From Tubiluchus corallicola (Eukaryota > Priapulida > Priapulimorpha > Priapulimorphida > Tubiluchidae): a stretch of DNA of 64,000 nt. The stretch covers positions 1 through 64,000 of the forward strand of contig JAQGDQ010000178.1 of NCBI GenBank assembly GCA_030141605.1. Reading direction: 5' to 3'. The first letter of the stretch is position 1, and each line of letters starts with the position of its first letter. Position numbers and translations under genes: made by a program. Shown piece by piece: positions 6,507 to 47,878 of this stretch. Below the pieces are notes generated by a model that saw only the letters and a list, made by a program, of their open reading frames with translations, did not search any database and had not been told where the DNA came from.

Positions 6507-6653
6507 ATGTCTTTTATACGCATGTTTAGAGGTGGTGATAATGAAAACGGAAGTGAAGGTGTGAGTTCATCAACATTTTACATCGGATCACTAAAATCGA
6601 GGTCCATTCGGCCCATTTTGAAGGATGGCAGTAGCAAACAAGGCAAGGAAGAG
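6507..6653 (+). CDS. Alternative first coding exon 1 (49 codons), AHCYL N-terminal variant
   Basis: ATG with G at -3 opens a 49-codon frame, MSFIRMFRGGDNENGSEG onwards, ending KQGKEE just before GTACTG. The end is phase 0, so it can join the cassette at 8937 or the exon at 20958. The peptide is Ser/Gly/Arg-rich with no fold. It has RSIRPILKDG at residues 33-42; PILK resembles the PP1-binding SILK motif but lacks its first Ser or Gly. It is too short for ordinary ORF finders, which is why it is easy to miss. The donor is weak (GAG|GTACTG). Evidence is start context, composition and phase. It could be a chance frame, but the same phase 0 end recurs in three further first exons. Predicted isoform 569 aa with the cassette, 534 aa without. 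Confidence 0.55.
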
Positions 6654-8936
6654 GTACTGCAGTAAATATTCATTTTATGAGAATAAATACGCAGTGACTG
6701 GTTGCTGCTCCGTAGCTTGATTGATATGTACATACAGTTTAAAAGGATTTTTCGTATCTGTTAGTGGATGTAGATACAATCTTTAAGAAATGCTATATTA
6801 CTATGTGTCATGGCTGTGAAAATTAGAGTACAATATATACGAAAAAAGTTCAAAATATGGGTGGCATTGAGTTTAATGCAAGGAGAAATTAAGCTCCTGC
6901 GGTTTTTTTGGAATACTAGTACATCTTTGGATTGTTATTTAGAATGTTATAAACCTGTAACAAGTTTCATTAACAAGACAATTTTTTGTTGTAATATGTT
7001 AACAGTTTTTCTTTTGTGAAATGTTTAATAAAAGATGGAAAAACTAGTTATTAGCAGGAGCAAATCTCAGCATCAGTGCTGTTAAATTATTTGCGGTTAT
7101 TGGTACTTGAAAATTTGCCTTTAGATTTGGATTTGAAAACTTACCTGTATTTTCATTTTTATTTCTTTCGAGTTTTTAGATCTATCGTATTTCAATAGTT
7201 CAATGTAAGATTTCACTAGTTTTTTTAATTATCCAAGCTAATAGTTTTATCTAAATGATATTATAGATACCATCAATAGTTTGGTGTAATTTGGTTTTCT
7301 ATCACTTTAAGATTTAAAATTAATGATTGTGCAGCATCATTGTGGTGCAATTTATGTTCATGAAAAAAACATTGCAAGAACCTCAAAAATATTTTACCTG
7401 AAATACCGGTATTTCTGCAAAGTCACACTGCTGTATTTGCTGAAATAACATTTTGCCAGTTAAAAGTGTGTTGTTCTTAATTTTCAGGCTTATATTCATG
7501 AGTGTAAATGCCATAAAATAATGTCTCTACGTCAGCTCCAATTTTCCATCACAATGTCTACCATTTTTCTTGATCTTATATGCATGTAATGATCAATAGT
7601 TAATGCTGTTTCTGAAGTTCAAAAAAGCTTTTATGGAGTGGTGTATAATCTACTTTCTTTTATCCTTGTTACTGCTGACAACTTTTCAATCCTTCCTTCT
7701 CTGATTAATTATCCAAATATTATTGAAATAAAGCAGGTTTTTCAGGTCTGTGGAGTTTTTCTAGTGTTTTGCCCTTCCACTTTTTATATAGCACACGCAA
7801 GGCTCATTACAGTAAAAATATCAGTTAGTATGAAGCATTTGCACATCGCACTTGATGAACTTTGTACTCGCGTCATTATGTATACAAACTAGCATGGCCT
7901 GTTATCATAGATAATTTTGTAAACCAACACTAGTGGTCTTTTGTTGGAATATATTTCAAATTAAAACTGCTGATAATACTTAAAGAGATAATGAGGCCAC
8001 ATGCAAAGACAAAGCAACATTAACACTAATGACTATTTAGCAACTTACATTTACAACAATACAGCTGAGGAATAACAGGCAAATGATAAATAATATGTAG
8101 GATATATGCCTTGGCTTTTGCAGCCCGAAATCTAGACCACTCGGCCACACAACCCACGACAAAATTGCAAGGAAAAAGGCCAAGAAACTATCCAAATTAG
8201 CATTTTTTCTGATTAAATTTTATATGGATAAATGTAGAACAGCAGTGAACATGCTGTGAACTTAGCCAGTACATTTTGGCAAAATTGTGCATGAAATAAT
8301 TTTAAGCACATAGACCCAATTTCAGATTGTAGCCTCCTAGGAAAGAGCTTCTAAACAGACATTGTTACCTGGGAGAGGTTGCTTAACAAATCCTCTTGAT
8401 ATGGCAACAGTCTTGGAGCGCACTACACATTTCTTGATTTTGAAAATAATATCATTCTTGATATCCAAATATTAAAATGCCTTTCTAGTCTCAAAAATTG
8501 AGTGACATTTTTCATCCATAGCAATACCAGAGTGCCAATTGTTAATGAAAGGATTCGTTTTTGTATTTGATGCTGATCTTGTGCTGCCCAGGCTCCATTA
8601 AATTTGAAAGCATTTTGTTTGTGCACTTGCTGGCAAAAGTCTATGGTTTATGTATTGTCAGAAACAATACACGATTGACTGAATCAGAAATTTCTAAATA
8701 TGGGCACATATAGTCTGGAGTCTCAACAGAATGACGTGACATGACGTGTGCTCACAGTGGTTTCCTCGCACCACACATCATTTTTGATTTTCTTCAAGGC
8801 TCAGTCATTGGACCTATACCTTTTGTCATAATATACTTGTACAGAGTTCCTTTCAAGTTAACATTACATTAAATTTTGAGGAATTTCATTTCAGCAGTGC
8901 AGTGGCTAGCAAAGTACATATTTGTTTGTTTTTTAG
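6654..8936 (+). other. Intron between first exon 1 and the cassette exon
   Basis: No gene, recognisable transposon or array seen. It is AT-rich and ends in a good polypyrimidine tract and acceptor (TTTGTTTTTTAG). Confidence 0.6.
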
Positions 8937-9041
8937 TCTAGCAGTGCAGAGGTCTACAAAGCCAGTGAGGAGATAGCAGAGACACGCCGCACTGAGGGAT
9001 CAAAACAAAGTGCTGGACGCAGGAGCCGACACGCGAGCCAG
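8937..9041 (+). CDS. Candidate cassette exon (35 codons, phase 0-0), AHCYL N-terminal variant
   Basis: A strong acceptor (TTTGTTTTTTAG) is followed by an open 105-nt segment that starts SSSAEVYKASEEIAETRR and ends RRSRHASQ, then CAG|GTGAGC. Both ends are phase 0, so it can be included or skipped without shifting frame. A second donor, GGA|GTAAGT at 9051, lies nine bases downstream, stays in frame and adds Val-Ser-Gly. The stretch is charged and disordered with basophilic-kinase-like sites (RRSRHAS). It fits between exon 6507 and exon 20958. There is no known homologue by eye; support is the splice sites and frame. Confidence 0.6.
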
Positions 9042-9984
9042 GTGAGCGGAGTAAGTACTCTTAAAGTATTTATAAATGTTTTTTGAGCTATGTGAATATT
9101 GTAGTTTGAGCGATTTCCAGCCGTTTATTGTAAAAAGGGTTCAGCTACTACCAGTATTACTAAATTATCAAGAATAAATATTAACCACAGGCAAGCTAAA
9201 TGATTTTGAAGAGGATGATGTTATTTTAGAAATATGCTCTTAATTCTTGCATTGTATGAGCACATTTTTATATACTGTAAGACAATCTACGAGTTTGTGC
9301 CAGTTCTTATTGAAAATGTTCAGCGTTTTGAGCAAATGCAGTCATACGATTTGAAGCTTTGTAAAGGTTAATAATGTGAAGAGAATGAAGTTTTTAGTTA
9401 AAATGATCACTTGACTAAAATAGGCTAATTCTCCTTCATAAAACCTGCGTAGGTACTGAAGACATTAGTTTGCTGGTGTTACTTAAATTCGTCTGCCTAC
9501 TCTATCAACTGCTTTGCTACGATTGTTTTTTCTGCTCACACTATCTCATCTTAACACTATCGGATCTATCTGATCGCACTGCAAATGTTCAATAAGGATA
9601 TATGTGCTCCGTTGCGGTAGTTTCATAGGAAGATATCAAGCCTGTCTGAACTTCGTTTTGACATTGTCACATGTTCTGGGGGGGGGGATTACGAGGAGGC
9701 ACCTACAGACGATAAGTTTAACACTAAAATTACCCGTTGGCATACAACCTGTTTCCAATTCTTATTTGCTTCAGCATTTGTAAGTTTCAATCCATATCTC
9801 TGTTTTCACAAGATCATGCAGTACAAGAGTACATTGATAGATATTAATCATTGTATTTAATAGTGTTGTAGGTCTGTGCTAAAGTTCAGAGTACGCAATG
9901 TGTTTCATTACACAAATTCACAGTTTTGTTGCATTGATTCACTTTTATATCCAACATATCATGTGAAAGTCATAGTTCTCTATT

Positions 9985-10068
9985 ATGTCTCGAAAGATCA
10001 GTTGGTTGCCGACCGTAACGGAGGAGATTTCTCCGGCTGGAAGCAGCGAGTTGCGGGAGAGCACTCAC
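9985..10068 (+). CDS. Alternative first coding exon 2 (28 codons), AHCYL short N-terminus
   Basis: ATG with A at -3 opens MSRKISWLPTVTEEISPAGS and ends LRESTH before a consensus GTAAGT donor, phase 0. Joined to 20958-21042 and the common exons it gives a 513-aa protein, the closest in size to vertebrate AHCYL1 (about 530 aa). KISW at residues 4-7 fits the RVxF consensus for PP1 docking ([KR][VI]x[FW]) and sits some 35 residues before the RSFS site; vertebrate IRBIT has its PP1 site (QIQFADD) in a comparable place. Start context, perfect donor, phase and motif agree. No upstream acceptor is needed if transcription starts nearby. Confidence 0.65.
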
Positions 10069-12069
10069 GTAAGTTTCTCCTGCTTTAGACCCTTTATTTG
10101 TACTTCCGTTAGCAGTTCTAACTTTGCTGTGCTTTGCCATATTGTCCATGTTTCTGAACGCTTAATTGCCCAGAGGATTAGAAACAAATCCGCCATATTT
10201 AAGCCATGTTTACCACATCCATATTCTATTTCCTTGTTGTTGATATTAGTGATTCTGATCAGCCTTGGAGCAGTTTCAAGCATGGCTTGCCTTTCATGTC
10301 TTGGTTTTTTAATACTGTATATGCTTCCTTGTTATTTTTGATATTAAAAATCGTAAATTGGATGTTGATCTTATATGAGTTCAGTTTTGGCCTCTGTCCT
10401 GCAAGTGATTTTCGCTTTCACGAGGAGACAGCAACAGGCAATAAATTAACAGTTAAATTAGCCACTAGTACACAAGATTTTGACCAGATTTTTTGGTTTA
10501 TTGTTGAAATTGGCAATCAGTTGTGCTTCTATTTGGCTTTCCTAAAGCAGTTTTGGCTAGAGCCGTATTAGAATGTAAATGCAATTATACAAACATTTTT
10601 TAGTGTTTCTCAGTCAATCTTTAAAGGAAGTAGAATGAAACCAGCAGAATGTCTAGATTTCAAGGAAATAGCTGTTCTGAGAATCGAGCTAATAATTCTT
10701 TGATGTTAGGTACTCACAAGGAAACAAAGTTGCACATATAGTGTTTTAGATCACAGGTTATTTTGAGTTACTGTCCAAGTTGGTCACTTTTTCCCTTTAA
10801 TACTAAAATCTGTCTTGTTAGTTTCATTTAGTCAGTGATCAGAGTCTGAACATCATTGTTTTTCATCATTTTTGCTGGCAGTTTCTTTGCTTCCTTTGGC
10901 TGCTGTGTTGGAAGGTGATTGACCTATCTATTTCATTTATTGTGTGACTGTGTGAAAATCATTTACTTGTGATGTATATATAGCTCAAGATCCAATACTT
11001 GGTAACATCCTGCTGCATTGTGGAATAATAATTTCATTAGGGTAGGCAATCCTGAATCAGTGATATGCATGTAATGTCCCCAAGCCCTCTTGATCAATGA
11101 AGCAAGCTTACATTAGGTGCTCCATTGCACAAGCATGTATAGATACTGCTGTTATTGCACAGTCACTTTGTTATGCATTTAGTAGAGAAAGCAGTTTGAC
11201 GGATCTCACAAATTTCAGATATTTTATAATCCTCAAAAAGTGCGACATTGATTCTAGGTTGCTCCCTAACACTGTAAATTCTTGTTTCTTCAAAAAACAT
11301 ATTTTAATTGTCACAGAATTTATTATTGTTACTTTATATTATCTTACATTTGTTTACTTCTAAATCACATTTTTTTTTCACCGTGGCTGGCCTCTAATTT
11401 GCTTAGTTGACATTTATTTATTTTTATCTTCATTGTATCGTGGTGACATAGCTCTTGGGACAAATATAAATTATTTCATTGCTTTCTGGAAAGCTTATTA
11501 GCAGCACTGACTTGCACTGAATTAAGTCATGTTCAGTCTTTCACTAGGGATATGTGTTGTTTGACTGATGACTCTTATGGTAGCCATCTTACCCTGAACT
11601 GTACAAGTTTATATTTCTAACCAGTCATTAATGCATGAGCCAGGCAGGTGATAATGAATGTCAGTGAATGATCAGTGAATCACAGGTGTGGAGATTACAC
11701 AAGAGACCATTAAAGTATATTAGTTGTGAAGAAATATTATGGGATACATGGCCATTGACTGCTACATAATGCAGTATATTAGTTGTGATATTTCTTGAAT
11801 GTTATTAGATTTTTGCTCTTAAACATTCTCATAAAACTTGTTGAACAGTCTAAAATACTGCTGAATAACTTCTTTGTTTCTCTGCCACGTTTGCTATTGT
11901 AAGTTTCAATCAATTTCTGCATAATAGCCACTGATTATTGCAGTAGTTACATATATATATAGTTTTAGAAATGACTTGGTGCTGCTATTGTCTTCATTTT
12001 TTAAATTCAGTTTATTCTTAATTATCAGAATAAAAAAGAATTGTATCCTTATGACAATGAACCCTTGCG

Positions 12070-12310
12070 GAACTGCACTTCCTGCATTTATTGCTTAAAA
12101 ATTCATGAAATATTAGACTGTGCACTAAAAGTTTCCGTTACTCAAAAAAACTGCATTTATTCCCTTTATTGTTTAGAAATCTGTGAAGCATTTGAAATTC
12201 AAACACTCAAACGTGTGAAGCACCCTTGTGGCAAAAGTTTGAACTACATTTGCTGCGTTTATTGCTTGAAAATTTATGGAATACGGAATACAAGAAACAT
12301 TGCACTTTGA
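12070..12310. repeat. Degenerate repeat, about three copies
   Basis: The string TGCATTTATTGCTTAAAAAT and relatives (CTTTATTGTTTAGAAAT; GCGTTTATTGCTTGAAAAT) recur near 12088, 12165 and 12253, each followed by a similar A-rich stretch. Translated, they read YCLKI or YCLEI three times. Spacing is uneven, so this is an old, decayed array rather than a gene. Confidence 0.45.
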
Positions 12311-14867
12311 AGTTTCAGTGTAATGTCACCTGATAAATTTTGTCGTCTCCATTAGAATTATTTTAGTGGTTTAAATTAGCTTGTCAAGTGAGTAGAATAA
12401 GCAGTAATTGGTCTAATAACATTGAATCAATTGTATTATTAAAGAACAAGAACACAATGGTATAACACTATACACAAAATATAGGCCATGAGTAGTATTG
12501 GTTACTAAACTAAGTACTCATATTAACATTTAAAGGGAAAAATGGTAATTTTTTAATATCTAGAAGTTACAGCAGATGTGAAATGTTATAGTTGAGGTCT
12601 TGGATCAACAGTCCTTACCTCTTTCAAGCTAGCACTGTTTGAGTTTGCCAGAGCTTGCATTTTCTGTTGTTTTCATCAAACTAATGTGGAATGTTTTTGT
12701 TTGTTTTGGCCAAGGTGCTATAACTGTTTTACAATGTCACTAGCCCATCATTGGAGTAGTGTCTTTACATTGAAGTCGCTAGGGGGGCAGTAATGTACTA
12801 GTGTTTTTGTTTTCATATGCTTACAGCCAATTAACGGAAAATAATAGTACAGTCCTACAACATGTAAGTTAAATTCGCTGTCAGAAGTTAGTTTAGTGTT
12901 TGTACCCAGTATTGTGTTTGATGATGGTATATTCTGTTGCAGGAGTGTCCAGCTGAATTTATAAAAATACCTGAGTTTTTCGTATTACAGCTGCAAATCT
13001 ATGATTCTTAAGGTCATAGTTAACAGAAAGTGCTAAGCATAGTCTGAATTTGCTAGATTGGCTTGTTTTTCATATTGAGTTGAATTGATGGTTGTTTGTA
13101 GCCTAAGGTGTTCTTGCAGTGTTATAATTAGGAATTAATAGTGCTAGCGACTTGACTATGTTTCCACTGATTGTCACGGCCTTCGCTCAGTTTTCTTCAG
13201 CTGAGTGTACTGAGTGGCATTGTGATGGTCGTGGTGGAACTGGTGACTGTAAATTGTGTAAATTGTGGGATTGATGAAAATGAGAGTGAGTAGGCTTTGC
13301 TTGTTTTTCAGCACAAGTTGTCAGTCAGCAAATTATGTTTTTTTTCATAACTGTGCATTTTCGTGTAAAGCGTTTGATTATTTTTGCCTAATGTCAAATG
13401 TAATTTCTTCTAATATTTACGAGTTTCTGTCGTATTTTCTGTGTTGCTCGATGAGGGGTTATTGTTGCTTGGTAAATAAGCAAATCAGCGTGATCAGGAA
13501 TGACAGGTTCTTGTAGATTAGATAGGAGCCATTTTTGAATGGACGACAAATACGGTCTCATCTGGCTTGAAGTAAAATCTGAGGAATACTTTTTGTACAT
13601 TCATTGATTTCATGAAAATCATGGTAGCATATCTCGTTACATACTTGTTGTTATTTTAAATAGGGAATATCATCTTGTGTTTATTGTAGATTTAGATAGT
13701 CTACAGTAGAAACCACTACTATTTATTTTATGCAGTAACTGTTGTGTAATTCCATTTATATTGTGAGTCCTGAGTATTTTTGAGCTATTTTTGCAAAGTT
13801 TTTTAAAGAAAAATGTTATACTAGAAAGGTACATATTTCTTATCGTACGCTTTAGTTTTGCTCGTTGTAGACTGCTCGCTATAGTCTGCTCATTGTAGAC
13901 TCATCGAACATTCCATCAAATATTTGCACATTATAAGCCATTACAGTATATGTTGACATGAAATGCACAGCATTGTGTTTTATTTTAAGCCCCTTTTGGA
14001 ACATTATGATTGGTAATTAAGCACTAAACATTCCATTCTATGCTTGGCCACAGGCCTTCTCATTTGAAAGTGAACATCTACCAGTATCGCTTTTTTGTTT
14101 CATCTATAATTGCACATTTCTGTATGAAAGCAAACGTAGGACACTTGTAATGTTTGATGAAATATGCATCAGTCACAGCACGACGATATTAAATAAGAAC
14201 TTCCTTGTTGTGTTGCTAGACTATAGTAGATGAAAGCCTCAGGCTCGAGCATTTTACGGCGCATGTTGACTGGATAAGATCAAACTCTCGTTGAACTGTA
14301 TACAGTGTATAGTAAATACGTAGTCGCAGTCCAAGAGGGTCAGTTGCCGGTTATCGGAGCGTTCTGTACTAGAAACAAAACAAAAGGGCGGTCTGCGCAC
14401 ATTGAAAACTGATCAGCTCTCCGCTTCAGAAGTTGCCATATTAATAGAACATGTCGCAGTTGTTGACGTTTGTAAACTCAAAACTGCTATGACTGATAGA
14501 CTAACTCAGTAGTCACGTTGCTGCTGTACACTGTCGTTTATAAATAGAAGATAACGCTTAGGGTCATTTGCGAAACCAAATATGCACACCATTGAAGCAA
14601 GTTGGTCAGCAGTATTTGGCACCAAAACCCCATTGCCCCTTTGTCTTGTCTGTAGCGTTTGCACTTTCGCAAATAGTTATTATTCTGGTAGATAGTAGAA
14701 TCTGTTATAATCGTTATTATAGTTATTAATGTCAATTCTGCTCTGGCGTGTCCTAAAAACGCTAAGCTGGATCTCTTGCCGTTTTGCATTCAATCGTTTA
14801 GCAATGCAAACTCACAGGACAGGGCAAGGGCACTGGGTTTTAATAGTTTAACCGTTTCATACCCGTT

Positions 14868-14895
14868 GTATCCCATGGGATACGAGAATATTCTC
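14868..14895. promoter_or_regulatory. Two abutting perfect palindromes; the second is heat-shock-element-like
   Basis: GTATCCCATGGGATAC (16 bp) is directly followed by GAGAATATTCTC (12 bp). The second contains AGAATATTCT, which fits nGAAnnTTCn. No basal promoter is visible beside it; it lies 1.1 kb upstream of the exon at 16044. The function is only a guess. Confidence 0.35.
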
Positions 14896-16043
14896 TGCTT
14901 TTAAAATCAATAAAATTTTAAAACTGAGAGTTATTTGATTTGTTAATAGTTATTTTGTTTTAAGTCAATAACAATAGACTAAAAATAGTGATAAAATGGC
15001 AAACTAAAAAATCTACATACCACAAAAACTGTGCAAGGTACAATACTTTAGAGATGACTTTGTACAGATCAGCATAGCACACATACTAAATGTCTTAAAT
15101 ACTTTAAAAAAATATCAGCATTTGCTTTTTATCATGTTTATCATTTTATCACGTCATACATGTAGGACGTTGTTATCTCCGATTGTGATTCGTTTTAGCA
15201 GTGAAGTTAATGACTGCGAAAACAAATCTTTTTATTTCTTTATTAATTTAAAATATTTTTTGCTTTTTGTTGGCAAGATGAAATAGTTAGCTTGGTGGCA
15301 AGCCAATTAACTAAACCGTGCGTCAGTGTTGAACTAAAGTAATCAGATATAACGTATTGCTGTCTAGCGACTTACCTGAATAGATAACGATGTTGCTGCT
15401 GCAGATGCTGTTTTAGATTCTTCATAATTAGCAGATGATTGATGCAACAAGAGGATTGGGGAAACATGTAAACATAACCGCAGAGGATGTTCTGTGGTAA
15501 TACTAACTCTCATTAGATGCACAAAATTAATTTAAGACATTGACGAACTACCAGTAAGGAGCTATAAATTTACGCATAAGCCTTGCCCTCTTTCTTTTAT
15601 TCACTTTCCATGAGCCGTCATGCGTTGCTCGGAGATATTTTGGAAATACTGTACTGGATTTGCTCGCATTTTTTGTTGCTTCCTGTAAAAGGATGGGATG
15701 TATAAAAAAATTGGATGTATAAATAAATTTTGAAATGCGTAGCTTAGCTCTCCCAGGTGTTGGATGGATTTTCAAAGCATCCTGGACAAGTGAAAGTGAT
15801 GCATTGTGGAAAACTTTTTCTTGAGAGTGCAACGAAAGTGATAGATGGTGAAGAGGACGAAAGGAAAAGTGCAGATAGTGGCAATCTTAAATATTACTGG
15901 TGATGCTTACATAGCTCCATACTGATGAATATTTCATCGTTTCTGTCCAATGATGTGACAAAACATATCAGGTGGTACAACCAATGGAATAGTTTGAATG
16001 TAACCCGAAGTTGCATTGAGCTGGACTTCTTAGATGACGAACT

Positions 16044-16553
16044 ATGAATGAGAAAGGACATTACTGGAACATTGTCAAGAAGCAACTCGTCTTTGGCAAG
16101 TCACCAGTTAAAGACCAGAGGAGGGCCACTTGTCCGAGTGTAGCCATACCATTTTTCAATCATGAAATGGTCAGTAGTAACAGTCCAAAACCCTCTACTA
16201 CTATGTCGCCAACTGCAGTTAATGCAAGTAGCCCACTAACACCCCACAAAGAGGAAGACAGTGTTTTCATGAATGGAGTAGGAGAAGAAAATGTTTCTCC
16301 GACAACGTCAGAAGAAGCCAAGCAACCCACGCTACGGCGTCGGTCTTCACTCAGAAAGAACCTATGTGAACTTGGGAAATCAACCAGTGATGGTCAGTTT
16401 GCTCCCGAAGACGAGGAAGATGCAACAATTCAGAGGGGGCGCAGAAACACCACTGGCTCGGCGGTCTTGCAAAGGGAAATGCGGAGGCGTCAGGTGTCAT
16501 TTGAAGACGAAGTCCTGGAGGTATCAGAAGCTGATGATGAAGATGGTGACGAG
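16044..16553 (+). CDS. Alternative first coding exon 3 (170 codons) with IRBIT-type PP1 motif
   Basis: ATG with A at -3 starts a 170-codon disordered segment that ends EADDEDGDE before GTAGGA, phase 0. Residues 148-155 read RRQVSFED, a textbook RVxF PP1-docking motif followed by acidic residues. It matches in place and kind the QIQFADD site of vertebrate IRBIT, which lies just upstream of the same serine-rich segment. It also has RRRSSL (98-103, basophilic kinase or 14-3-3-like) and several Ser-Pro/Thr-Pro sites (S20, S47, S55, S63, T66, S85). Spliced to 20958 it yields a 655-aa protein. This is the best supported alternative tail after the one at 44974. Retention of the intron would stop the frame within four codons. 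Confidence 0.75.
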
Positions 16554-19451: not shown

Positions 19452-19811
19452 ATGTTTCGCTGCGGTGACGTCTTCACGTTACTGAACCTTTGGCAAAACT
19501 GTGGGAGTCTTTCAAAACCAGCCATTGTGGACATTCCTGTAGACATTCCTCCGAAGTCAATTTTGGTGAACGGTACGCATAACGCACATTTGAAGATGGT
19601 CCGCCGTTGTGATTCCAGAAATGAGACGTTGAATTTGGAAGAGCTGGAGAAATGTTGTATGGAATTGAACAGTGAGAGTGGAAAGGTGCTTTCCCGCGTG
19701 AACTGGTATCAGTCATTGCCTTCTCTGTGTAAAAGTGAACATTTGAGCTCTAGCACAGAATGTCAGCGAGAACAACAAGAACAAGAACAACAACAACGAC
19801 AACGAGAACAG
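19452..19811 (+). CDS. Alternative first coding exon 4 (120 codons), Gln-rich end
   Basis: Translation from the first ATG after an in-frame stop gives 120 codons starting MFRCGDVFTLLNLWQNCG and ending in a Gln/Glu/Arg run (residues 104-120, encoded by CAA-type repeats) before CAG|GTAGAA. The phase 0 end allows splicing to 20958 for a 605-aa isoform. SRVNW at residues 81-85 fits the RVxF PP1-docking consensus, and PPKSILV (34-40) is a partial SILK match. The start context is poor (C at -3, T at +4). A non-ATG frame runs ten codons further up, so the true start is uncertain. This exon is less sure than 16044 or 44974. Confidence 0.5.
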
Positions 19812-20957: not shown

Positions 20958-21042
20958 GACTCGAAGGCTGGTCCTAAGCGTACGCCAAAGATTCGGACTC
21001 GATCTTTCTCTCAATCGTCCAACGACAGTTACAGTTCTACGG
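20958..21042 (+). CDS. AHCYL1: Serine-rich IRBIT exon (phospho-switch segment)
   Basis: An acceptor (CTTTTCAG) and a GTAAGT donor bound 85 nt encoding DSKAGPKRTPKIRTR then SFSQSSNDSYSST, phase 0 in and phase 1 out. Joined to the next exon this reads SSTASYTGSSSDED, aligning with vertebrate IRBIT SRSISQSSTDSYSS...ASYTDSSDDE. The RxxS site (RSFS, equivalent to human Ser68) and the serines at +3, +6 and +9 (Ser71, 74, 77) are kept. In vertebrates, phosphorylation of this ladder is needed for binding the IP3 receptor. This exon is shared by all four upstream first exons and skipped when exon 44974 is used. Confidence 0.88.
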
Positions 21043-33690: not shown

Positions 33691-33724
<34 letters not shown>

Positions 33725-33732
33725 TCTGTCTC

Positions 33733-33786: not shown

Positions 33787-33788
<2 letters not shown>

Positions 33789-35663: not shown

Positions 35664-35787
35664 GTAGTTCAAAGGGCTATAATCAGCTGCAGCCGACTGT
35701 AGTTTGAGGGATATGGGTACGGTCAGTAGTTCAAAGGGCTATAATCAGCTGCAGCGGACTGTAGTTTGAGGGATACGGGTACGGTCA
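35664..35787. repeat. 62-bp tandem duplication
   Basis: GTAGTTCAAAGGGCTATAAT and the following 42 bases occur twice (35664 and 35726) with two substitutions. Each unit holds CAGCTGCAGC. Confidence 0.93.
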
Positions 35788-36204
35788 GCTGATTGTTGCG
35801 AACAACTTAAAAGTCTGTTAGCTGGCGAGAAATTGAAGGCCTCTTGACCATAGACTTGAAAGTCGATAGTCTTGTGGCTCTTAGCTTGATAATTCGCGCG
35901 GTCAGTTGTTGAAAATTCGATTATTTTGCCCGCTAATCAAACTACATGTATATTCTTTTCTCTGGATTATATAGAAAATCTCATAATTTTAAAAATTACT
36001 AATGTTTCCTATATTAAACTGATACCATTAATGCCCACCAGTGTCTAAAAAATCTTTTTATCTATATTCGGTAAAGGATAGCAGACTAGGTGACTTTATA
36101 GTCTTTTCGTTATCCTTTCTATATTTCTAGATCTATCTATACATTTTAACCATTTTTCAAAACTTATTAGAGATTGTTTTATTAATCATGTTTATTTTAA
36201 CACT

Positions 36205-36240
36205 ATAAAGAGATAAATAAATTGAAATTGAATTGAATTA
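36205..36240 (+). mobile_element. Possible LINE 3' tail
   Basis: GATAAATAAATTGAAATTGA followed by ATTGAATT resembles the short-repeat tails of non-LTR elements. The sequence before it is not recognisable as coding, so this is weak. Confidence 0.25.
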
Positions 36241-37132
36241 TTAAAATACTCTTTGGCATCTGTACCTGTTACTACTGTTCCGCTTTAAAATCTCTCAAAA
36301 ATTTATGTTTGGTTAGACCAGATCGATATTAAGCCTTAAAGAATCAGACATTATTCAAAAGTAATAGTGTTTGTAATGAAGTTAGCCTATCGTGCGCAAG
36401 CCATTTAACTCGCTACAACATTTTGTCTGACATTTGCGATACTTCGCGGATAATGCCTCTCATTGTAACCTCTCATTGTGGTGCTTGCGATAGTTGTAAA
36501 TATCACGAGTTCACTTGCTCAGCATTGGGTCCCTCAAGATCATGCCTCCATTACGGCACGCCATTTTCTCGTCTGTGCATTTCTGTCGAAATTGAGAGTT
36601 TAATTCCCTTGACCTTTCGTGCGTGACCTTTTTGAAGCTTGGTTATCTTCTTTACGTACAACGTGGCCGCTGCAGCTTTTCGCAATTATTAATCCGTTTG
36701 ACATTTTTTGTCATTCAAAGTAAATTGATCTCATATAATTGTTCCGAAATAGGTATAATGTCAACTAGATCTTTATGGTTACAGCGTCTCGCACTTGCCG
36801 CCCATATCTAAGGTAAGTGTGGTAAACGGAGTCATTTCAAAGTTCCAAAGAAGAAGAAAAAACAGCTGTAATCTAGATTATTTATCTATTAGTTTATCTA
36901 TTAGTTGATAGATTATCAATTAGTTCATTTAACCGATCTGCTGTACTACGATATACACTCTTCAGTGAACCATAAATGCTGGGAATAAAACTCCATATGA
37001 AAAGACATTTACCAAGTTGTCTTCTAAATGGCTTCGGCGCTTATACAATTTATCAGGAATTTTTTGTGTTAATGTTTTGCGCTTCATCATTATTTGTTTG
37101 GTATCAAGTTTATTTTATTTAGTCCATTGCAG

Positions 37133-37290
37133 CAGAGTGGGAAAAGGTTTGGGTCCCAGTTTCACACGTCGCGAGTACATTCTCTTAACTATTAGTAAGG
37201 ATGTTGTTGAGTTAGTGACGGTTTTGTGAAGCCGGGCTCAGACTTTTTCCACTCTGATGTTGTGGACTAAATAAAATAAAATTGAAATGA
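37133..37290 (+). repeat. Inverted repeat and A-rich tail, possible retroposon 3' end
   Basis: CAGAGTGGGAAAAGG (37133) pairs with ACTTTTTCCACTCTG (37242-37256) across about 95 bases. AATAAAATAAAATTGAAATG follows, much like the tail at 36.2 kb. A stem followed by a tail suits a non-LTR 3' end, but no coding remnant is visible. Confidence 0.35.
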
Positions 37291-38498
37291 ACTGCGCTGA
37301 AGCCGTGCCTTTCCCTTCCATTCATTTTCTTATTTGACGAAGCTTATAAATTGTGGAATAATAACCTTTATGTAGATTACACGTGCTTGATGGGTAATAA
37401 TTTTTGTTTATAGTTAAGAGTGTTGGCACCATTCGAAGAGGTAATCTGTGCTCATTAGTCGGTTGGAAATTTAGTCTGCGACATTGCTCCAGTGGGAAAT
37501 TAAAAACAACGTGCTTGTAATAGAATATTGAATAATGACAGGGTTTGAGACATTGATGGTTTTTGTGTTGTAACAGTATCTTGAAGCAGGTTTTTTCCAT
37601 GAAGAAATTTCCACTCATAATCCATCTCGCTTTACTGGCACGTTGATATTGGTTTCTAGGAAGACTATATTAAAGTCACTACGCAGAACGGCTCGTTATA
37701 AACATACAATTATCATCAGATCACGTTACAGCGGAGGCTGTAAAACTCAAATAAAACATTTACTATTGTTCTGTTATAGCATGCGTTGGAGGTCATAATG
37801 ACTTTGTGTTTAAAATATTTTGTGCGTCGTCATTGTTTTGTCTGTGTGGCTTCTTGTAAAAAGCTAGCAAGATTAAGGTTTGTTTTCTTAGAAAGGCACA
37901 AACCATGATAGTTTTGCTCTACGCATGTTCACGCACAGGGCTTGGTATCTCATTTCTTCCTCTGTGTCAGCGTCCGTGATACACCGCGAACTTCTGTGAA
38001 CCTTTTGATGCGCTGCCAAGAGCAGAGGTCAACTTGTCTTTAAATTTGCACTGTGTTTGAGGAAAATGTGCACGTTGGTGCCTAATAACTGTTAGAAACG
38101 AAGCTTCTTTCTGCCACAGCTTCCTGGGTATGTTGATTACTAGCACTGACATAAATATATATTGATACTTACAAGTTTAAACAGCTGCGTGGAACGTTCG
38201 CGTGTCGATAACACGTAATCTTGCGGCTAAACTTGTGTGCTCCAACTGTAGCGATGATTCATAGTTGGGATTTGGTTATGTGTTTCATAGTTAGGATTTG
38301 GTTATACGAGCAGTGACACTCATGTCTCTGATTGCCACATGTTTTTACCTGCGATATGAATGCGAAAGCACGACAATAGTGGCGAAAAATTGCCAATGAT
38401 TTTGACTTGAGAATCCACAAACTATGAAACTTTCGTTTTCAAGTATTGTTGCAGGGAGATTGCGCTACTTGTGTATGTAACAGATATGATGACATACC

Positions 38499-38604
38499 AA
38501 TATCGTTTGCCACGCGTTAAATGTACCTTTATCGTTTGGCACGCGTTAAAATGTACCCTTATCGTTTGGCACGCGTTAAATGTACCCTTATCGTTTGGCA
38601 CACT
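38499..38604. repeat. About 30-bp tandem repeat, 3.5 units
   Basis: Unit TTATCGTTTGGCACGCGTTA plus AATGTACCC, repeated from 38499, with one single-base length variant. Contains ACGCGT in each unit. Confidence 0.9.
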
Positions 38605-39254
38605 TCCCATGCAAAGATACTGATTCTAATTTCACCGCAATCTGTCTTTAATCGATTACCAGTTACTGGCTTTCACTACGCCCTGATAGATGCTTTTAAG
38701 GAAAGGGGTACCTGTCAAGCAGTAGGATTACTCCTGCCTGCTTTTAGGTAACCAAATAAGAGCAAAGAATATTCAGTGCAGAGGATAATGAAGTTTGGAA
38801 ATCAAAGTTGTGAATGCCCGAAAGCTATCTGACTTTTCTGTCTGGACTCTGGTGTCTGCTGTACTGTTCCAAAAATACTTTCTTCAGTTTTTCAGGGCAC
38901 ATGTCTGTTTCCTTCGCTCTGATTGCTACAATCCGCAAAAGCGGTGATCTGAGTAGCTTCGTGTTCACAAAAAAAATAGTGGGAAGCAGGGTCTTCATGT
39001 CCTAGAGCACGATGAAACTTTACAATAAAATCAGCCTGTTTTAAAAAAACAAAGTTGCCGTGCGTGCCTCAAAGAGTGCTGAATGTCGGTTTGTCCTAGA
39101 TGACACATGAACCGTTCTTGCACCCTTTTAACCCTAAAACTGCTGTTCCCTAAAAGAATCCAAAAAGGTTCGCTGCCTGAAATGGTATAACGTTATGAGG
39201 TTATCCGACTGGCTGACAAATGTCAATCGCGCCGACTTTGCTGCTAGGCCTAAT

Positions 39255-39310
39255 CATGTGACCCACACGCGTCACGTGACCTGCGACAGTTTTGTCTGTA
39301 ACTGAGCGTT
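39255..39310 (+). promoter_or_regulatory. Second promoter-like spot: CGCGTCACGTGAC
   Basis: GTCACGTGAC, a perfect palindromic E-box (CLEAR/USF type), at 39271-39280 inside CGCGTCACGTGA, the same 12-mer as at 27563-27574. TTTAATAAAAAC lies about 30 bases downstream. Donor-like GAGAG|GTAATT and GAAT|GTAAGT follow within 300 bases. The regulatory role is inferred. Confidence 0.28.
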
Positions 39311-41502
39311 TAATAAAAACGTGCAGTGATAGAATTCCTTGTTAGAGAGGTAATTTTAGCTGTCTTCCTCGCGAAGTAATGACAGAGCTATGCGCTCCGG
39401 CAAACTAAGGGGGAAGTTTTAATTAGTGAAGGACGGATGGAAAAATTTTAATCAGCCATAAGGACTGGTTTGGCTTCTTTGTCTGTGAAGTTGTAATTAA
39501 ACTTTTACTTCGGTTACCTGCTGAGAGGCATCAAATTAGTCTTAGCTGTGAATGTAAGTGAAATGGGGAAAGGTGAATAACAGTGTGCAAATCTTTCAGT
39601 GTGAGTCAATGGATTGAAAATCAGTGAAAACTCTAATACGTTCAGCTTCTGTCGATTTTGTTGTATGAGCTATTCGAGCGTTGGGTTCTACGCACCCACA
39701 GGAGTTTATACAGTATGACTGAAACCGCATAGACCTCGTCATGAGGTGCAGAAATTGGGGCGTTAAGCCTGTTCACACAGGTTCCTGGCCACTGTGATGT
39801 ATTAACTATGTGTATGAGTATAACCTTTCTGGTGGAAACGGATTTTAATTTGCATGTATGTATGTATTGAGAGACTGATAACTTTTGAAATTAAGCAAGT
39901 AAAGTTCTTATTTTGGTACTTTGGTTGCGTATATACGTTTAATCCATACTTGCAAGGAGTTATTTTTGGCGCTGTCTTGAAAACAGCAAATACTCTACAC
40001 TTTTGTTTAACTGCTTTGAACATCACTTGCTTCAGGGTTGCATTTTTCTTATCCTCTGGTACAAATTATTTGAGAATCGAAACTCGTTTTGTAAACTACA
40101 AAATATAGCAAGACCAGTTTTCCGATTTCCCGATACTAAGCGAATGTAGCATTCCAAATGATGAATTTTAATGATATCAGAAATAAAATACAAGTAGTCG
40201 TGTCTTTAGGGCAGTAACTTCTTTCTTTTTTTCGATAGATTCATGCATAATTGCATATTCCGTCCTTGAGGTGCCTTTGCTGCTTTTACATTTCGTATAT
40301 ACTCCTGTGGCTGGAACTTCTCCGTTAAAAAGATGCATACTCGTGAGACATTTGCTTGTAATTTGAAATTTGTTAGTAATTAGCAGTGCAACCTTGTGTT
40401 GATTGTTATATACCTACGGCGTCACAGAAGATATCCCATATTGACTTATGCGGTAATATGTTGCTGGTGACTTGGTGATTGGAAGTTTGGAGCGACACTG
40501 GTATCCTATTCAGTTTTTGTTATGACCAACAGTAATATCACCTAGTCACCATAGAAGTTTAATAGTTTTCTTAATTTTAGTTTGGTATTTAATTATTTTT
40601 GGTAAATCTAGAAGTAAAATGAATTATACAAGGTATTTTTACAGACATAAGAACATTTGTAGTTAAAGTTGTGTTGTTTTTAACTGCAAAGATATTTTTT
40701 ACTTTTATTATATCACGGCTGAATTACTTTAAATTTTGACAAACTTTTCGTCAGGATGGGAATTTTTTTAATATTCTGCAGTGTATTTACTGTAAACTTG
40801 TTTATAAACTTTGTACATTTGTTTTGAATTCACATAAAAACGTTAAATTTATAGTGAAAGCTGAGAAAGTAGACTTGATAACAAACACTTCTTGGATTCT
40901 TCTTGTGAACAAACGCTTTTCGCAACACTTTGAAACTCAAACTAATTTATTTTCGGCAAAGCAAAACTTTCCCCAGTTGATTTCTACTCCTTGTGCATCT
41001 GAATTTATATTCTATTCCCATTTGGCCCCATTATCACTATAAATTTTGATACGCGGCTTTTAGCATTTTAGACTTTTTTGCCTGCCACAGTCTGTTGCGA
41101 ATCTTTATGATCAAACACAAACCGCTTTCCAAGGCTGAAGTATCAATAATGCAGTTTGGAAAGATGCGTGCAAAAATTCTACCGGGTTTTTCTGCGCATA
41201 TACGAGTCATTTGTCCAATTTGTTTCTGTAGCAGCGCTTAAAAGCTTCCTTGTAATTGCCAAGAAGAAAGGCAAACTTACAAAAATTGTAAAATTGCCCC
41301 TGCAGTTTATATAGCGATACAAAATTAGTAATAACGCAGACGGAGGCACATCAAAGTTGTACTCTGTTTCTTCTGTTGATGACGTCACCGTGTCCCTGAC
41401 ACAAAAATGGTTACTTGTTGGTTCCATTGCGTTAGTTATGTTTCTTTTTGCCTGTGACGAAACTAAAGCAAAGTTATGTCAAAATTTCTGAAAAGTACAA
41501 GA

Positions 41503-41552
41503 GTTGTATGGTAACGATGTAACCTGAATTGTTACCATAGTTACCATACAAC
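41503..41552. repeat. 13-bp perfect inverted repeat (hairpin)
   Basis: GTTGTATGGTAAC at 41503-41515 and GTTACCATACAAC at 41540-41552, with a 24-base loop that itself contains GTAAC/GTTAC. No T-run follows. Purpose unknown. Confidence 0.6.
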
Positions 41553-43319
41553 CGTGCTAGATTGCTACAGTGTTCAGAAACTAGCTGCATACATAATACA
41601 TCTAACTGTATCAGATTTCGTTTATAATTTATGTGCCTGACTGTCATTATCTGAAACTTTACTTTGACAATTCAGCAATGGCACGAGAGCTCGTAAAACT
41701 TATACATAGGTGATGTTGAGCTTGTGATTACACGTGGGAGGTAACAAGTCACTAAAACTGCAGTTTGCGTGCCGTAGTTATGTAAAAGTGCTTCTCAGTC
41801 CAACGATGAATTATTAAATAATTCTGGCTGAGCTGGTATTGGTGATGTGCAATGTGTGTGGAAACACGACCTCTTTTCAAATCTGCTAACAATGTACAGC
41901 GTGCTTTCTTAATGGACTGCACTAGAGTAAGACATTCTTTTTAAAGAACTGTTTATTTGTCTGCGAACGCCAGTGTTGACGTTGTCTGTTCTCTTACCGG
42001 GCTTCTGGGGCGACCTTGCTACACGTAGAAACGGTTGCTATTTGCGGCATCCATTGGCTTTTTGGTTAGTAACAATACGCTTACCGATGCTTGAGTGTAT
42101 AGTCCGAACTATTTTTACTGCTGCAACCTATTTAAAGCACACCACGAAGATTTTTCGTTGCATGGGTTTAGCTGTAAAGTTGTTTTAAGTCTGACATTCT
42201 GTTAAGTTGTTTTAAGTCTTCTGCTAGGCCAAAGTTAGGCTTATTTCAATGTTCACGAAAAGTATTAGAAGGATTTAGAAATAACACTGCAATAAGCACC
42301 TCGTGTAATTAGTAAAATCACTTTAAAGTCACGGTCACTTCATGTTTGGGCGCTCCCATCTTCATCGTCCGGAAGATTTGTAGCTCACTGTTCAATCTTC
42401 GTCAAAAGTACAATAAGTTTTTACAAAAAAATGGGTAGCTAATTCAAGCTGCAGAGGTTTGAATTCATTTAAGCGTGCGGTTACGGAAAGCCACGATGCT
42501 CTTACGAAAAGTCACGAAGTCCCCTGTTTCGTCATAATTTTTAAGTGAATGGCGGCAACCGTTACACCTAAAAATTTCTATTCAGTGGTAATATATTTTA
42601 AATTTATGCTTTATAGATAATTTTCTGCAATTTTTTTTGCTATATTTTTCTAAGTTTAAGTGATAACAGTAAAATAAACCCAATATATCGAGTGAGTTAT
42701 TCTTTCCGTTAACAAAAGTCGCCAATCACTGCAACTCAAAATTTTAACGTAGAGAAATGATTTCTTTTTATAAACAGCGTTTTCTCCAACCATATTTTCT
42801 TTCCAAATAATCCTTTTTACGAATCTTTCATTGTAGAATGAATGGAAGATGACTAGCAAAATCTAATAAATGACTTCTTATTGAATTTGGGAGATAATCA
42901 TGTGCGTTTTAGTATGAAAAATGACTTTTTATTCACAGCGCAAGGCAGCCTGACTATACTACATGATCAGCAGCTTCAAGATTTTATCAACAAAATTCTT
43001 TTTTCTCGGTCCTCATCATTTGTCCTTTTCTAAGCAGCAGCATACCCAGTAGCTGAACTTTGCTATTTTTGGCAAGCCTGGCTGATGATCTGTATTGCTT
43101 CTCCATGGCTGTTACTCGGCACCCCTACTGTGAACTTTCCAAATGTTCTAGATTCTCGCAAACAACCTCGTATACTGAGCGAAGCCATGGCTTACTTTTC
43201 TGTGCTAAATCTGCTGTATGCCCAAGGCTAATAAATTAGTCATGAATGGGAACTTTTGAAATTGATTCTTTAGAGCTATGGCCTAGTCACCTTCAACTCT
43301 ACACTTTATAACAGTAGAC

Positions 43320-43696
43320 CAGTGTTTCCCAAACATTTCCAGTAGAGTTCCCTTTCAGTAGTACCAAACCTACCATACCCCCACCTTTATAAGCCTTCTG
43401 AAAACGTACCACTTTGTAATACGGGTAAAAAATGGGTGCAAAACACCGAACCCAACTATCAGACTACTTTGTCATTCTTGTGTATCTTCCATTAGCGCTG
43501 AGGGATATGTCATTATACCTGTTTTAAAGACAGCGAGAGGCTTCGTACGAAACGATAAACAACAATGGCTGATGCACCCACAATGCACTAGCGGTCCGCG
43601 CATGCGTTTAGGCCAGCGTCGAGACTGAAAATTCAGCCCCGTTCCGGCGAGCTGAATGTACCCGCCAGCTCATGACCCACAGTTTGGGAACCACTG
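43320..43696. mobile_element. hAT-like nonautonomous element (MITE)
   Basis: The ends CAGTGTTTCCCAAAC (43320-43334) and GTTTGGGAACCACTG (43682-43696) are inverted repeats with one mismatch. They match the CAGTGGTTCCCAAAC terminus typical of hAT elements. The interior (about 350 bp) has no transposase. I could not see a clean 8-bp target duplication, so it is old. Confidence 0.7.
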
Positions 43697-44973
43697 CTTT
43701 CAGACGCCTGTATGGAGTTGCTTGTGTTAATATTTAACGCCTTTAGAATTCGATCGATTTTAGCGCTAGAATTTTCCGAGATATTTGCTTAACGCGAGGT
43801 GTTTGTTGTCAGGATGCCTCGCACCTTTATTTATGTCATAATGTCATTGATTTTTTCCTTGCGAGAGTAAATTTGTTTCTAACACTATACGTGATGCTGT
43901 ACTGCCTGTGTTTTCTTAAACCACAGACATCGTTGCTGTTTTAAGGATGTTTTAGATTGAAAAACTTTTAGAAATTTCTGTTACTACCTTCTAAACAGGA
44001 GTAACTCAAAGCGTAGTAGTGAGCATTTCTTACTAGGTGCCGATACTGATTTTGTTTGTGTTTCATTAGCTGTCACCTTTTGGCGAGTACTTAACACTAC
44101 TTATGAATTATTGACTACCGTCTAGGTTTAATTTGGTTTCTCTGTAGTCAATTGTGTGACTCAGTCTCTGCGGCTTCAGTAGCCAAGTGCACTTCAGACT
44201 GAAGGTCACCGTGATTAGAATTAAAAGTTCAGATTTTCAGCTTCCTTCGTAATCTGTATGTTTATCCTATTTGGTTTATGATTTGCTTTTCTGCCAGCAT
44301 TATTGAAGATGGCCTAAGTTACATGTGCTGCGAATTATCTTCTTTTCTAAATGCTATTTGAGCAATAGCATTTTTCAAATAGCACACGTTAATTGATACA
44401 ACAATGCTTCGATTTCTTAAAGCATTTTCCATTGTTCTTTGTCCCATTGTGTAGAAAGATCTAAGGAACATTTTGAATTGTTTGAAGATTTTTACCAGTA
44501 AGAACTTATAATAATAATTATGGAAGCACTGAAAACGTGAAATTTCTTAAATTTGGTTGTCAGTCATGTGTGATTATGACAAAGCAGTGCGTTGCTTCGT
44601 TTATCACAAAGGGAGTGTATTATATCAATGGCCATAATGCTATGATGATGCTTAGACACTAGACAGATCAGGATATAATTCATTCAGTAATGGCGGTAGG
44701 TTTTGCTGTATTAAAACCTTTTTTGCCTTTCATTGAAATCATTTTCTGTTGTAGCATTCCTTCATCAAGTGCCAAGTATAGTTTCATCAAGTACAGTGCA
44801 TTGTGCCACAGGTGTAGTCAATGTGAATGATTTGCGATTCACTTAGTCTTAATGTGATAAAACAAATGTCTTTTCCTGTTTATCAGCAGTAGTGTGATAA
44901 GATGAATCTCTGTTCTGTTTCTGTGAGTTCTGGTTTCTAACGAAACTGAAATAAAACCTGCGATCACAACAAA

Positions 44974-45910
44974 ATGGATGCTCAAGAAAAGACAGAGGAT
45001 GGCGAGGGCCTGAAAACAGGCACAGGTGATGCGAAGTTATTAATTGAATTGGCTTTATCAAAAAATGAAGACGTTCAAAATGATGACAAGACACCCACGA
45101 CTGAAACGCACATTGCAGAAACTAAGCTAGAAGAGCCTAAGTCTAAAAAGGTGTCCATAGCTCAAGACAATGAAGTTACGAAGAAAGGTGTTGGTAAAGA
45201 CAATACCGGGTCTAATGGAAATAAAGATAAGCTAGCACATGTTGAGGAAGCGGAACATCACGTGCAGACAAAGTGTGACAAAAAGAAAGAAAACAAAACA
45301 AAGAAGCACGATAATAACAGTGGGAAAGACAATCACCATCACGACGATGGCAAACACTGGCACCTTCCACATTTGCCGAAGCTTCATTTATTTGGCCATC
45401 ACAAGAATGGCCACAGTGAGCATAAACCACACCCGGACACACCCGACAGTGATACAGATTCAATTAAGACAATCACATCTCAACCACAGTTGCATGAAAG
45501 TGAAAATGGTAAGGGTGCCACACAGCCAAAATCTAGTTCCACCCCTACTATGTCTGGAAATCCGACGCTTTCTCCATCTAGTGGATCAGTCAGTTCAACA
45601 TCCTCGCGAGATCATCCCACTCGATCCATCTTGAAAACATCAACGAATAACGTGCCATTGCTGCACCATACTCCAGTCCCAGCTAATCCCATCTTGCCAA
45701 TGTCAGCTCGAATAGCCCATCAGTCTTTGCTGCCATCCAACTCTGGCGAAAGCTTGTCCGACTTGCCGGAAAAGGTGTGCGAACATGCCCGGAAGGGCTT
45801 TAAGCTCAGTGTCTACAATGTAAAAGGGGCACAACGTCGTCGGTCCCTTCCTTTCAATGTGCAAGAGCCAAATCGAAAGATCAGTGTTAGCTCGGTATCT
45901 TCGACAACAT
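44974..45910 (+). CDS. AHCYL1: Alternative first coding exon 5 (312 codons), long His-rich AHCYL N-terminus
   Basis: ATG in a good context (AAAATGG) opens 312 codons ending RKISVSSVSSTT and a split codon at CAT|GTAAGT, phase 1. This fits the acceptor at 47820 exactly and skips exon 20958. The peptide is disordered and charged: acidic/Lys-rich (1-110), His-rich (112-153, 13 His, e.g. HHHDDGKHWHLPHLPKLHLF), Ser/Pro/Thr-rich (155-215), a canonical PP1 SILK motif (RSILK, 217-221) and a basic C-end (RRRSLPF, 288-294). Ser304 lies in RKIS and starts an every-third-serine ladder (304, 307, 310, 313), mirroring the exon it replaces. A pyrimidine tract and TTTATCAG at 44886 suggest the exon begins near 44887 after a 5' UTR intron. 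Total isoform 769 aa. Vertebrate AHCYL2 also has a long variable N-terminus, though I see no direct sequence match to it. Confidence 0.85.
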
Positions 45911-47819
45911 GTAAGTATGATACGTTCACATGCAATGTTTGACATTGTGTTTTCATTTATCTTATACCAACTATGGTTCAAATTTTTTTTACTAATTTTT
46001 TAACAATTTATGTTTTTCGGCATGGCACGGTTCCATCATCAGTGAAAGCCCGTAATTGAAGAATAATATGAAAAAACTATGTTAGAGATTGCAAAATAGT
46101 TGAAAAGTATCTAACAAAATCTTAGTGTTAAATAATAAGTTTTTAACTAAAGTTGTTTATACTAGTGTTGTTTAATATTAACTATTTGCTAAGTTTCAGC
46201 TAGTTTCTTTTCTCCATGAGTTGCCTTAAACATTTTTTCTCATTTTATTTCATAATCTTAGGCTTTCACTAATAGATGGGAATGGTGTCATTCTGAAACT
46301 TATGAAACATTTTAATAAAAAATTCTAACCTAGATGCAAAATACCAGCGTTGATTGAAGAAATGTGGTTAAACGTAAATAAATTATGTATCTTGAAAATA
46401 GTTTTCATTGTGATCAATACATTATCTTCTTGCCAGTTACTGTGGAGGGCCTCCATATTTACATGGCATCTCACTGTGTACACAGCATTCCCATTTATTC
46501 TCCATGTATAAACATAGCCACTAATCAGCGTGCTTTTGTGTGCTGGATAAACTGTGATTTAAAGCACATGACAGGGTCCACAGCTTGATTTGGGTATAGC
46601 TTATAATTAAAAGAATTGAATTAGTTGTTTCCATCTGTGCTTGAAGTGGATGTAGTTGATGAAACATGGCTGAATGTTCCTAGCTGAGTTTAGTATATTA
46701 ACGTGGATGTTTTGGTCCAAGAGCAAGATACAAAAGCCATGAGAGAAGCTGTAACACCTCGTAAGTACTGCATCAAATAAAGATGTAGGAATCATCTTTA
46801 GACTCATCAGACATTGATTTATACTTATTATGTTGAGATTTGTGGTAAAATGATCTTCTAAGATGAGACGCTGAGCTGGTAGATGCAGAGGTGTGTTATC
46901 CTTCGATGTGTTCCTTCTTAACAAGATAATTAACTGGAACCAAAAGAGTATAGTAGATGAAATCGCCCAAAAATGATTTCCTTGGCATTTGCCTATCTAT
47001 TTACAGTCATGCCTACTAATGCCTAACTACAGCTGCAAATACCTATAGTGACAGTTTGGCCGTTCCCCTCTGTTCTGTAACACTGTCCAGTGTCCAGTGA
47101 CATATACTGTGATATTAGTGCAATCTGTACTTTTTCCGTGATGTAGTAGCCTATTCCCTTTTTAAATTCCCCTAAAATACAATATTGTCCTTATACGTAT
47201 TTTGGTTGGCCTTCTGCTTGTTTCAGGACTTGTAAATTAAATATTTTCTGCTTGCTCTCACAATTCAATTCTATATCTCTTGAGAAAATTTCATTAGTTT
47301 ATCTCATTTCGCTATGAAATAAACCCAAAAAATGCAATTCCTTGTACAACTGGAACATGCTTTTTGTGCCCAGTTATTTCACAAATTGAATTTTAATCAT
47401 TTCGCCTCGTCATCTTGCGTGGACCCATTCGCCTTTTAATTGTAATCCAGTTTTGAGCAGAAACCGAGACTGGTACATATTGCATCATAGATTACCACAC
47501 CTGAACATTTGAAATTTATAACATTACGAGTACATTGTAGGGGTAGCTAGTTTTCATCATTCCGAATTAACTTAACTTCAAAAAAACTTCTTTCAGTTTC
47601 ATAAACTTTTCTTCTAGTTTCGTAATCATTTGCACATAATTCATTAGAAAGTTGAGCGTAAAAATTATGTATGTATTAGTACTTTGCATACTTAATATAT
47701 TTTGTTTACTCGAAATTTCCAGCATTTTTGCTTTCCCCAAAACAAGTTTTGCTGTCGGGGGAGTTCATGATGTCTATCCTTGTTGATTAGTCGATTACCA
47801 CGGTTTCTTTCTTTTTCAG
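45911..47819 (+). other. Intron between first exon 5 and the common exons
   Basis: AT-rich, no gene seen. It ends in TTTCTTTCTTTTTCAG, a strong acceptor. Reading through the donor would add about ten codons before a stop. Confidence 0.7.
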
Positions 47820-47878
47820 CATCCTATACCGGAAGCTCGTCCGATGAAGATGATCAGCATCCACGGGAAAAACAACAG
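47820..47878 (+). CDS. AHCYL1: Common exon: acidic end of IRBIT tail (SYTGSSSDEDD)
   Basis: Encodes SYTGSSSDEDDQHPREKQQ, phase 1 in and phase 0 out (CAG|GTAAAG). It aligns with vertebrate IRBIT SYTDSSDDEVSPREKQQ. It completes the phospho-ladder begun in exon 20958 or exon 44974; the first codon is Ala after the former and Ser after the latter. This is the point where all isoforms converge. Confidence 0.93.

Follow-up and report, generated by a model that had tools for sequence, protein, structure and literature searches.

Can the protein of a single gene for IRBIT, which regulates calcium signalling, be fitted with several different N-terminal tails by the choice of its first coding exon? The question is raised by the first 64,000 bases (the window) of the 438,627-base contig JAQGDQ010000178.1 from the 343.5 Mb genome of the priapulid Tubiluchus corallicola (assembly GCA_030141605.1), the forward strand of which carries an AHCYL (IRBIT) gene. 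The initial annotation of the window proposed up to five alternative first coding exons, spliced in phase to one constant body. The exon geometry and reading frames of this proposal are right, and its picture of a constant body to which different N-terminal tails can be attached stands. On the evidence of the sequence, the locus is probably an animal IRBIT gene in which several alternative promoters would feed one body.

Thirteen exons of the AHCYL gene have been placed, from 20958–21042 to 62435–62555. All of them have an AG acceptor and a GT donor, and their joined reading is free of stops up to ...GPFKPNYY; a short last exon, with the final codons beyond 62555, was not located. In phmmer comparisons, for which the last two residues of the query were supplied from family knowledge, the best match of the body in the PDB is human AHCYL1 (3mtg, 834 bits, E = 7.7e-250). 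AHCYL2 (3gvp) scores 822 bits and the best AHCY only 568.5 bits. The body is AHCYL-like rather than AHCY-like, and the assignment to IRBIT made by the initial annotation is virtually certain. There are 14 matches to PF05221 in the genome, on four contigs, and none of them represents a second AHCYL gene. The remaining matches belong to an intron-bearing AdoHcyase gene on contig C329 and to two AdoHcyase frames without introns, one of 439 residues on C871 (L002/L003) and one of 481 residues on C1799 (L001). The first two look like AHCY by eye, and the last is assigned from its profile match alone. Therefore, one AHCYL gene has been found. The intronless frames lie on contigs separate from that of the AHCY gene, differ from it in their lack of introns, and may derive from an associated or contaminating organism. 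The assembly gave no COX1 match, and no Chitin_bind_4 match in a search that had no positive control. Two loci in viral contigs are 58% identical to the query over query residues 78–302 only.

The coordinates, ATG codons, GT donors, AG acceptors and phases of the proposed first exons are all present in the sequence. The candidates are designated A (a first exon A1 and a cassette A2, starting at 6507 and 8937), B, C, D and E. The junctions 6653/8937, 9041 or 9050/20958, 10068/20958, 16553/20958, 19811/20958, 21042/47820 and 45910/47820 give frames that are open throughout the placed body, and at least two first coding exons are in frame with one AHCYL body, as in genes with alternative first exons. 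These frames are read directly from the sequence, and transcription and splicing are predicted from them. Isoforms A to D would include all 13 placed body exons. Exon E exits in phase 1, as does exon 20958, and its direct join to 47820 is open, as had been proposed; isoform E would contain 12 of the body exons and skip 20958. Counted to position 62555, the isoforms are 567 (A; 570 with donor 9050), 511 (B), 653 (C), 603 (D) and 767 (E) residues long.

Length and composition distinguish several of the candidates from chance open frames. They were compared in length, GC excess over flanks and codon score with a control set of 286 ATG-to-donor frames from both strands, from which this gene and stretches judged to be coding or simple repeats had been removed. 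None of these controls is as long as exon C or exon E, and four reach the length of D. Because the removal of coding and repeat stretches could flatter the result, lengths were recounted over 264 kb, this time excluding only N and extending every frame to its longest donor; E then ranks third, C sixth and D fourteenth of 292. Four frames other than E exceed C in length: a receptor-like exon (178468), a simple repeat (122361) and two long frames without annotation (250880 and 78448). The GC excess of B is reached by none of 213 control frames of similar length, and that of the cassette 8937 by one of 249 ATG-led control frames. When a filter for exon-like frames was applied to 1–48 kb, the forward strand yielded B, C, D, E, one other open reading frame (13158) and a read-through of 20958, and the reverse strand a single frame. 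The cassette is not ATG-led and falls outside the filter. The additional frame at 13158–13242, which is GC-rich, ATG-led and 28 residues long, exits in phase 1 and could join 47820 directly, but it is probably a chance occurrence.

The starts of the exons are defined to different degrees. In-frame stops lie 9 and 27 nucleotides before the ATG codons of C and E, respectively, with no usable AG in between; C and E must therefore start at their ATG if they are read in this frame. The start codon of E has the context AAAATGG, and its GTAAGT donor scores 4.6 bits. In-frame TAG codons precede the ATGs of A1 (by 9 nucleotides) and B (by 12 bases), and the AG within each might conceivably act as an acceptor. 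Exon D has ten open codons and an AG upstream in frame, and could be an internal exon. The cassette is open only in the required frame. Its two donors, 9 bases apart, score 8.4 (9041) and 2.5 bits (9050), and the choice between them would leave out or include the residues VSG. An upstream open reading frame at 16034–16051 (ATG 16034, encoding MTNYE and a stop) overlaps the start codon of C and could lower its translation; eight ATGs lie within the 200 bases upstream of this exon.

Exons A1, 8937, B, C, D and E each match the genome once, at their own position, in a search that scored only the best candidates and skipped simple repeats. An origin of the tails from repeats or transposons is unsupported, since every candidate exon has a single genome match. 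No known Pfam domain was detected in any of the five tail queries. In pairwise local alignments of the first exons, the score of B with C was reached by 57 of 2000 shuffles (11 of 500 in another run), and those of the other nine of the ten pairs by 89 to 461 of 500.

Table 1 Features of the IRBIT locus in the window; a slash within a sequence marks an exon junction.
Feature	Position	Strand	Description	Basis
Candidate first coding exon A1	6507–6653	+	49 residues; donor GAG/GTACTG; phase 0	Open frame; weak donor (0.95 bits)
Candidate cassette exon A2	8937–9050	+	35 or 38 residues; donors 9041 (CAG/GTGAGC) and 9050 (GGA/GTAAGT)	Acceptor tttgtttgttttttag
Candidate first coding exon B	9985–10068	+	28 residues, MSRKISWLPTVTEEIS...; phase 0	Donor 4.1 bits
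Probable first coding exon C	16044–16553	+	170 residues, ending RRRQVSFEDEVLEVSEADDEDGDE; phase 0	Length, RQVSF motif, alignment
Candidate first coding exon D	19452–19811	+	120 residues; phase 0; RVNW, Gln-rich end	Donor 1.6 bits
Shared ladder exon	20958–21042	+	Predicted phosphorylation ladder RSFSQSSNDSYSST; entry phase 0, exit phase 1	Acceptor tttgcttttcag; donor 7.4 bits
Probable first coding exon E	44974–45910	+	312 residues; exit phase 1; would bypass 20958; SILK motif; ends RKISVSSVSSTT	Length, ladder, start context
Convergence exon, first common to all isoforms	47820–47878	+	Encodes SYTGSSSDEDDQHPREKQQ	Frames, splice sites
Remaining 11 placed body exons	49550–49637, 52381–52481, 55190–55261, 55553–55687, 58349–58572, 58941–59093, 60003–60073, 60421–60515, 60964–61062, 61355–61502, 62435–62555	+		Splice sites, translation, PF05221 exon matches

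The introns between the body exons contain two tandem repeats. A 21-base unit in 16.6 copies (48758–49116) follows 47878 and is open in frames on both strands, and a 60-base unit in 5.5 copies (51830–52160) precedes 52381 and is open as repeats of STFDLPKSHLSYQ. No RNA family reached its gathering score within the window.

Members of the AHCYL/IRBIT family have an N-terminal serine ladder, lack hydrolase activity and bind the inositol trisphosphate (IP3) receptor in the phosphorylated state. Exon 20958, which all isoforms but E would share, carries such a ladder (RSFSQSSNDSYSS). Together, exons 20958 and 47820 encode RSFSQSSNDSYSST-A-SYTGSSSDEDD, the register of which matches S68, S71, S74 and S77 of human IRBIT. 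When the joined exons were aligned with the presumed human residues 50–90, none of 2000 shuffles reached the score. The end of exon E, RKISVSSVSSTT/S, has a serine in an R-x-x-S context followed by serines at +3, +6 and +9, giving the pattern RxxSxxSxxSxxS (ladder RKISVSSVSSTTS). A four-step ladder of this kind arises in 0.19% of shuffles of the whole exon and in 0.27% of shuffles of its last 30 residues.

Stretches of two of the tails resemble the human N-terminus upstream of the ladder. Exon C ends with RRRQVSFEDEVLEVSEADDEDGDE, which places RQVSF, a match to the RVxF motif, 37 residues before the equivalent of S68. In an alignment of the last 35 residues of C with the presumed human residues 40–80, whose score was reached by 16 of 2000 shuffles, RQVSF falls on KQIQF, which we take to be the human docking site for the phosphatase PP1. 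A predicted PP1 docking motif is thus present upstream of the ladder in C. The start of exon B, MSRKISWLPTVTEE, was compared with MSMPDAMPLPGVGEE, presumably the start of human AHCYL1; 34 of 5000 shuffles reached the score, or 9 of 5000 in an anchored comparison chosen after the alignment had been seen. Eight of the 1592 ATG-led open reading frames of the contig, B included, reach the score of B against this start, and six score higher.

In mammals, phosphorylation of S68 primes casein kinase I to act at S71, S74 and S77, and PP1 docks at residues 40–44 and removes the phosphate from S68 (PMC5173324, PMC4887697). A PP1 site was expected beforehand from the literature. The motifs themselves are direct readings, and docking is predicted from them. 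By the usual RVxF and SILK patterns, RVxF matches occur in B (RKISW; KISW), C (RQVSF) and D (RVNW), and a SILK match in E. The occurrence of either motif, loose forms included, in at least four of five tails has a probability of 1.8e-4 from composition shuffles and 4.5e-3 from the rate in non-coding open reading frames. The pattern suggests that the array may tune how PP1 resets the ladder, with statistics that are modest.

A mechanism can be proposed for the locus. Each promoter would supply its own first coding exon, very likely in the case of C, E and B and less surely in that of D and of 6507 with 8937. Splicing of A to D would run by way of the ladder exon 20958; E, having a ladder of its own, would be joined straight to 47820. 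The body and ladder would bind targets as in mammals, with a priming kinase acting at S68 and casein kinase I then proceeding stepwise through S71, S74 and S77. The interchangeable tail would set the action of PP1, other partners or turnover on the ladder, and cells would tune IRBIT through promoter choice. The clearest case is exon E, which would replace the essential ladder exon with a sequence of the same R-x-x-S and S-x-x-S spacing. Since the window starts at the first base of the contig, further first exons may lie upstream.

Several results weigh against a complete array. The initial annotation took matching phases as evidence; however, chance yields comparable numbers of phase-0 candidates. 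When one best donor per frame is counted, positions 1–20957 contain six ATG-led phase-0 frames of at least 25 residues with a donor of at least 2 bits on the forward strand and three on the reverse, where the rate over 264 kb predicts 3.5 per strand; raising the cut-off to 4 bits gives three and one, against 1.3 predicted. Phase matching was dropped as proof of the array. The exon-like filter fails to recover A1, and codon scores separate the candidates poorly from controls, as they do the body exons (−0.07 to 0.34 bits per codon); codon bias was set aside as too weak a test. It is possible, if less likely than the fuller array, that the real first exons number no more than two or three (C, E and perhaps B), with D, 6507 and 8937 representing open frames or pieces of 5′ untranslated region that are in phase by chance and by the selection made in the initial annotation. 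Such a reduction agrees with the chance expectation and with the ordinary character of 6507 in donor, GC excess (reached by 59 of 200 controls) and length (by 70 of 286). Exon D also fits it: its donor is weak, its codon score is low, its end is rich in CAA/Gln, and 13 of the 292 frames exceed it in length. The donors of A1 (6653) and D (19811) lie under the 2-bit cut-off; those of the 11 scored body exons span 0.0–7.1 bits. By contrast, the strong donor, good acceptor and nearly unmatched GC excess of 8937 speak for a genuine exon, and 6507, 8937 and D have no matches elsewhere in the genome. It is very unlikely that E is instead a gene of its own, with a single exon, lying within the intron. 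Its frame continues past the donor to 45939, and AATAAA sites occur from 46314 on; however, the donor lies in the sole phase that fits 47820, directly after a serine ladder of the IRBIT type, and E has neither a Pfam family nor a second genome match. The proposed set of up to five first exons is thus upheld in part. By length, composition and IRBIT-type motifs, C is almost certainly a real exon, E very probably one and B a likely one; D is a fairly good candidate, the cassette 8937 is somewhat more probably real than not, and for 6507 the chances are even. These gradings, like that of the gene, are judgements.

Further results count against the proposed reading. The alignment of whole exon C with the presumed human residues 1–60 is non-significant (180 of 2000 shuffles), and the tails of A, D and E show no resemblance to the presumed human N-terminus. 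The RVNW of D fails a stricter RVxF pattern, A has no strict PP1 motif and only a SILK-like PILK, and RVxF alone in at least three of five tails has a probability of 3.6e-3 from shuffles or 0.046 at the non-coding rate. The ladder of E also calls for caution: three steps alone arise in 1.3% of shuffles of the whole exon and 2.5% of those of its last 30 residues, and its similarity to exon 20958 is weak (73 of 2000 shuffles), so that the likeness may stem either from convergence or from common origin followed by deep divergence. A review reports that IRBIT with S68A or S71A still binds the IP3 (inositol trisphosphate) receptor (PMC4464172), contrary to PMC5173324; the role of the ladder is therefore not fully agreed. 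Because the motif statistics are modest and SILK was added after looking, tuning of PP1 by the tails is considered rather unlikely. Roles of the tails in localisation, stability or the choice of partners, among others, are no less likely, and there is nearly an even chance that the tails are real and differ for such reasons, as do the mammalian L-IRBIT variants in stability and target spectrum (PMC7966362). The length and His/Lys-rich composition of E suit this explanation. Against it, a PP1 site ahead of the ladder was expected in advance, and a motif was found in four of five tails. A more specific proposal, which is doubtful, is that this one IRBIT gene could be a phosphatase-dock selector, whose promoters would swap one type of PP1 motif for another in front of a casein kinase I ladder, be it the shared one or one built independently. 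Exon C would bring a canonical RVxF motif, B KISW, D RVNW and E SILK, and A no strict motif. If this were true, the speed of ladder resetting would depend on the isoform, and IP3-receptor sensitivity would vary accordingly.

If the array of alternative first exons is expressed, an animal in which only one IRBIT gene has been found could obtain through its choice of promoters a diversity that in vertebrates is divided among AHCYL1, AHCYL2 and their splice variants. It would also offer natural tail swaps for probing what the IRBIT N-terminus does.

The locus shares with vertebrate AHCYL1 the body, the S68/S71/S74/S77 register, an upstream site aligned with the presumed KQIQF and, in B, a start like that which we take human AHCYL1 to have. 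It differs in that one gene would be served by several first exons, in the 170-residue tail of C, and in the predicted replacement of the ladder exon by E. Alternate promoters that place different N-termini on a constant body are known from the anion exchanger AE2 (PMC4464172); this is a different protein family, and the relevant part of that source does not mention an exchange of phosphatase docks. The statement of the initial annotation that no such array had been described needs qualification. Among the open-licence PMC papers that the searches listed, there is no description of an array of alternative first exons in a single IRBIT gene, or of an exon replacing the ladder. N-terminal variation of an AHCYL gene itself is already known in mammals, where splice variants of L-IRBIT (AHCYL2) have different N-termini, stabilities and targets (PMC7966362). 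These variants, V1–V4, likewise join one body to alternative N-termini that alter target choice and stability (PMC7966362); however, the diversity there lies in one of two paralogues, whereas here the one AHCYL gene found would carry up to five tails, one of which bypasses the ladder exon.

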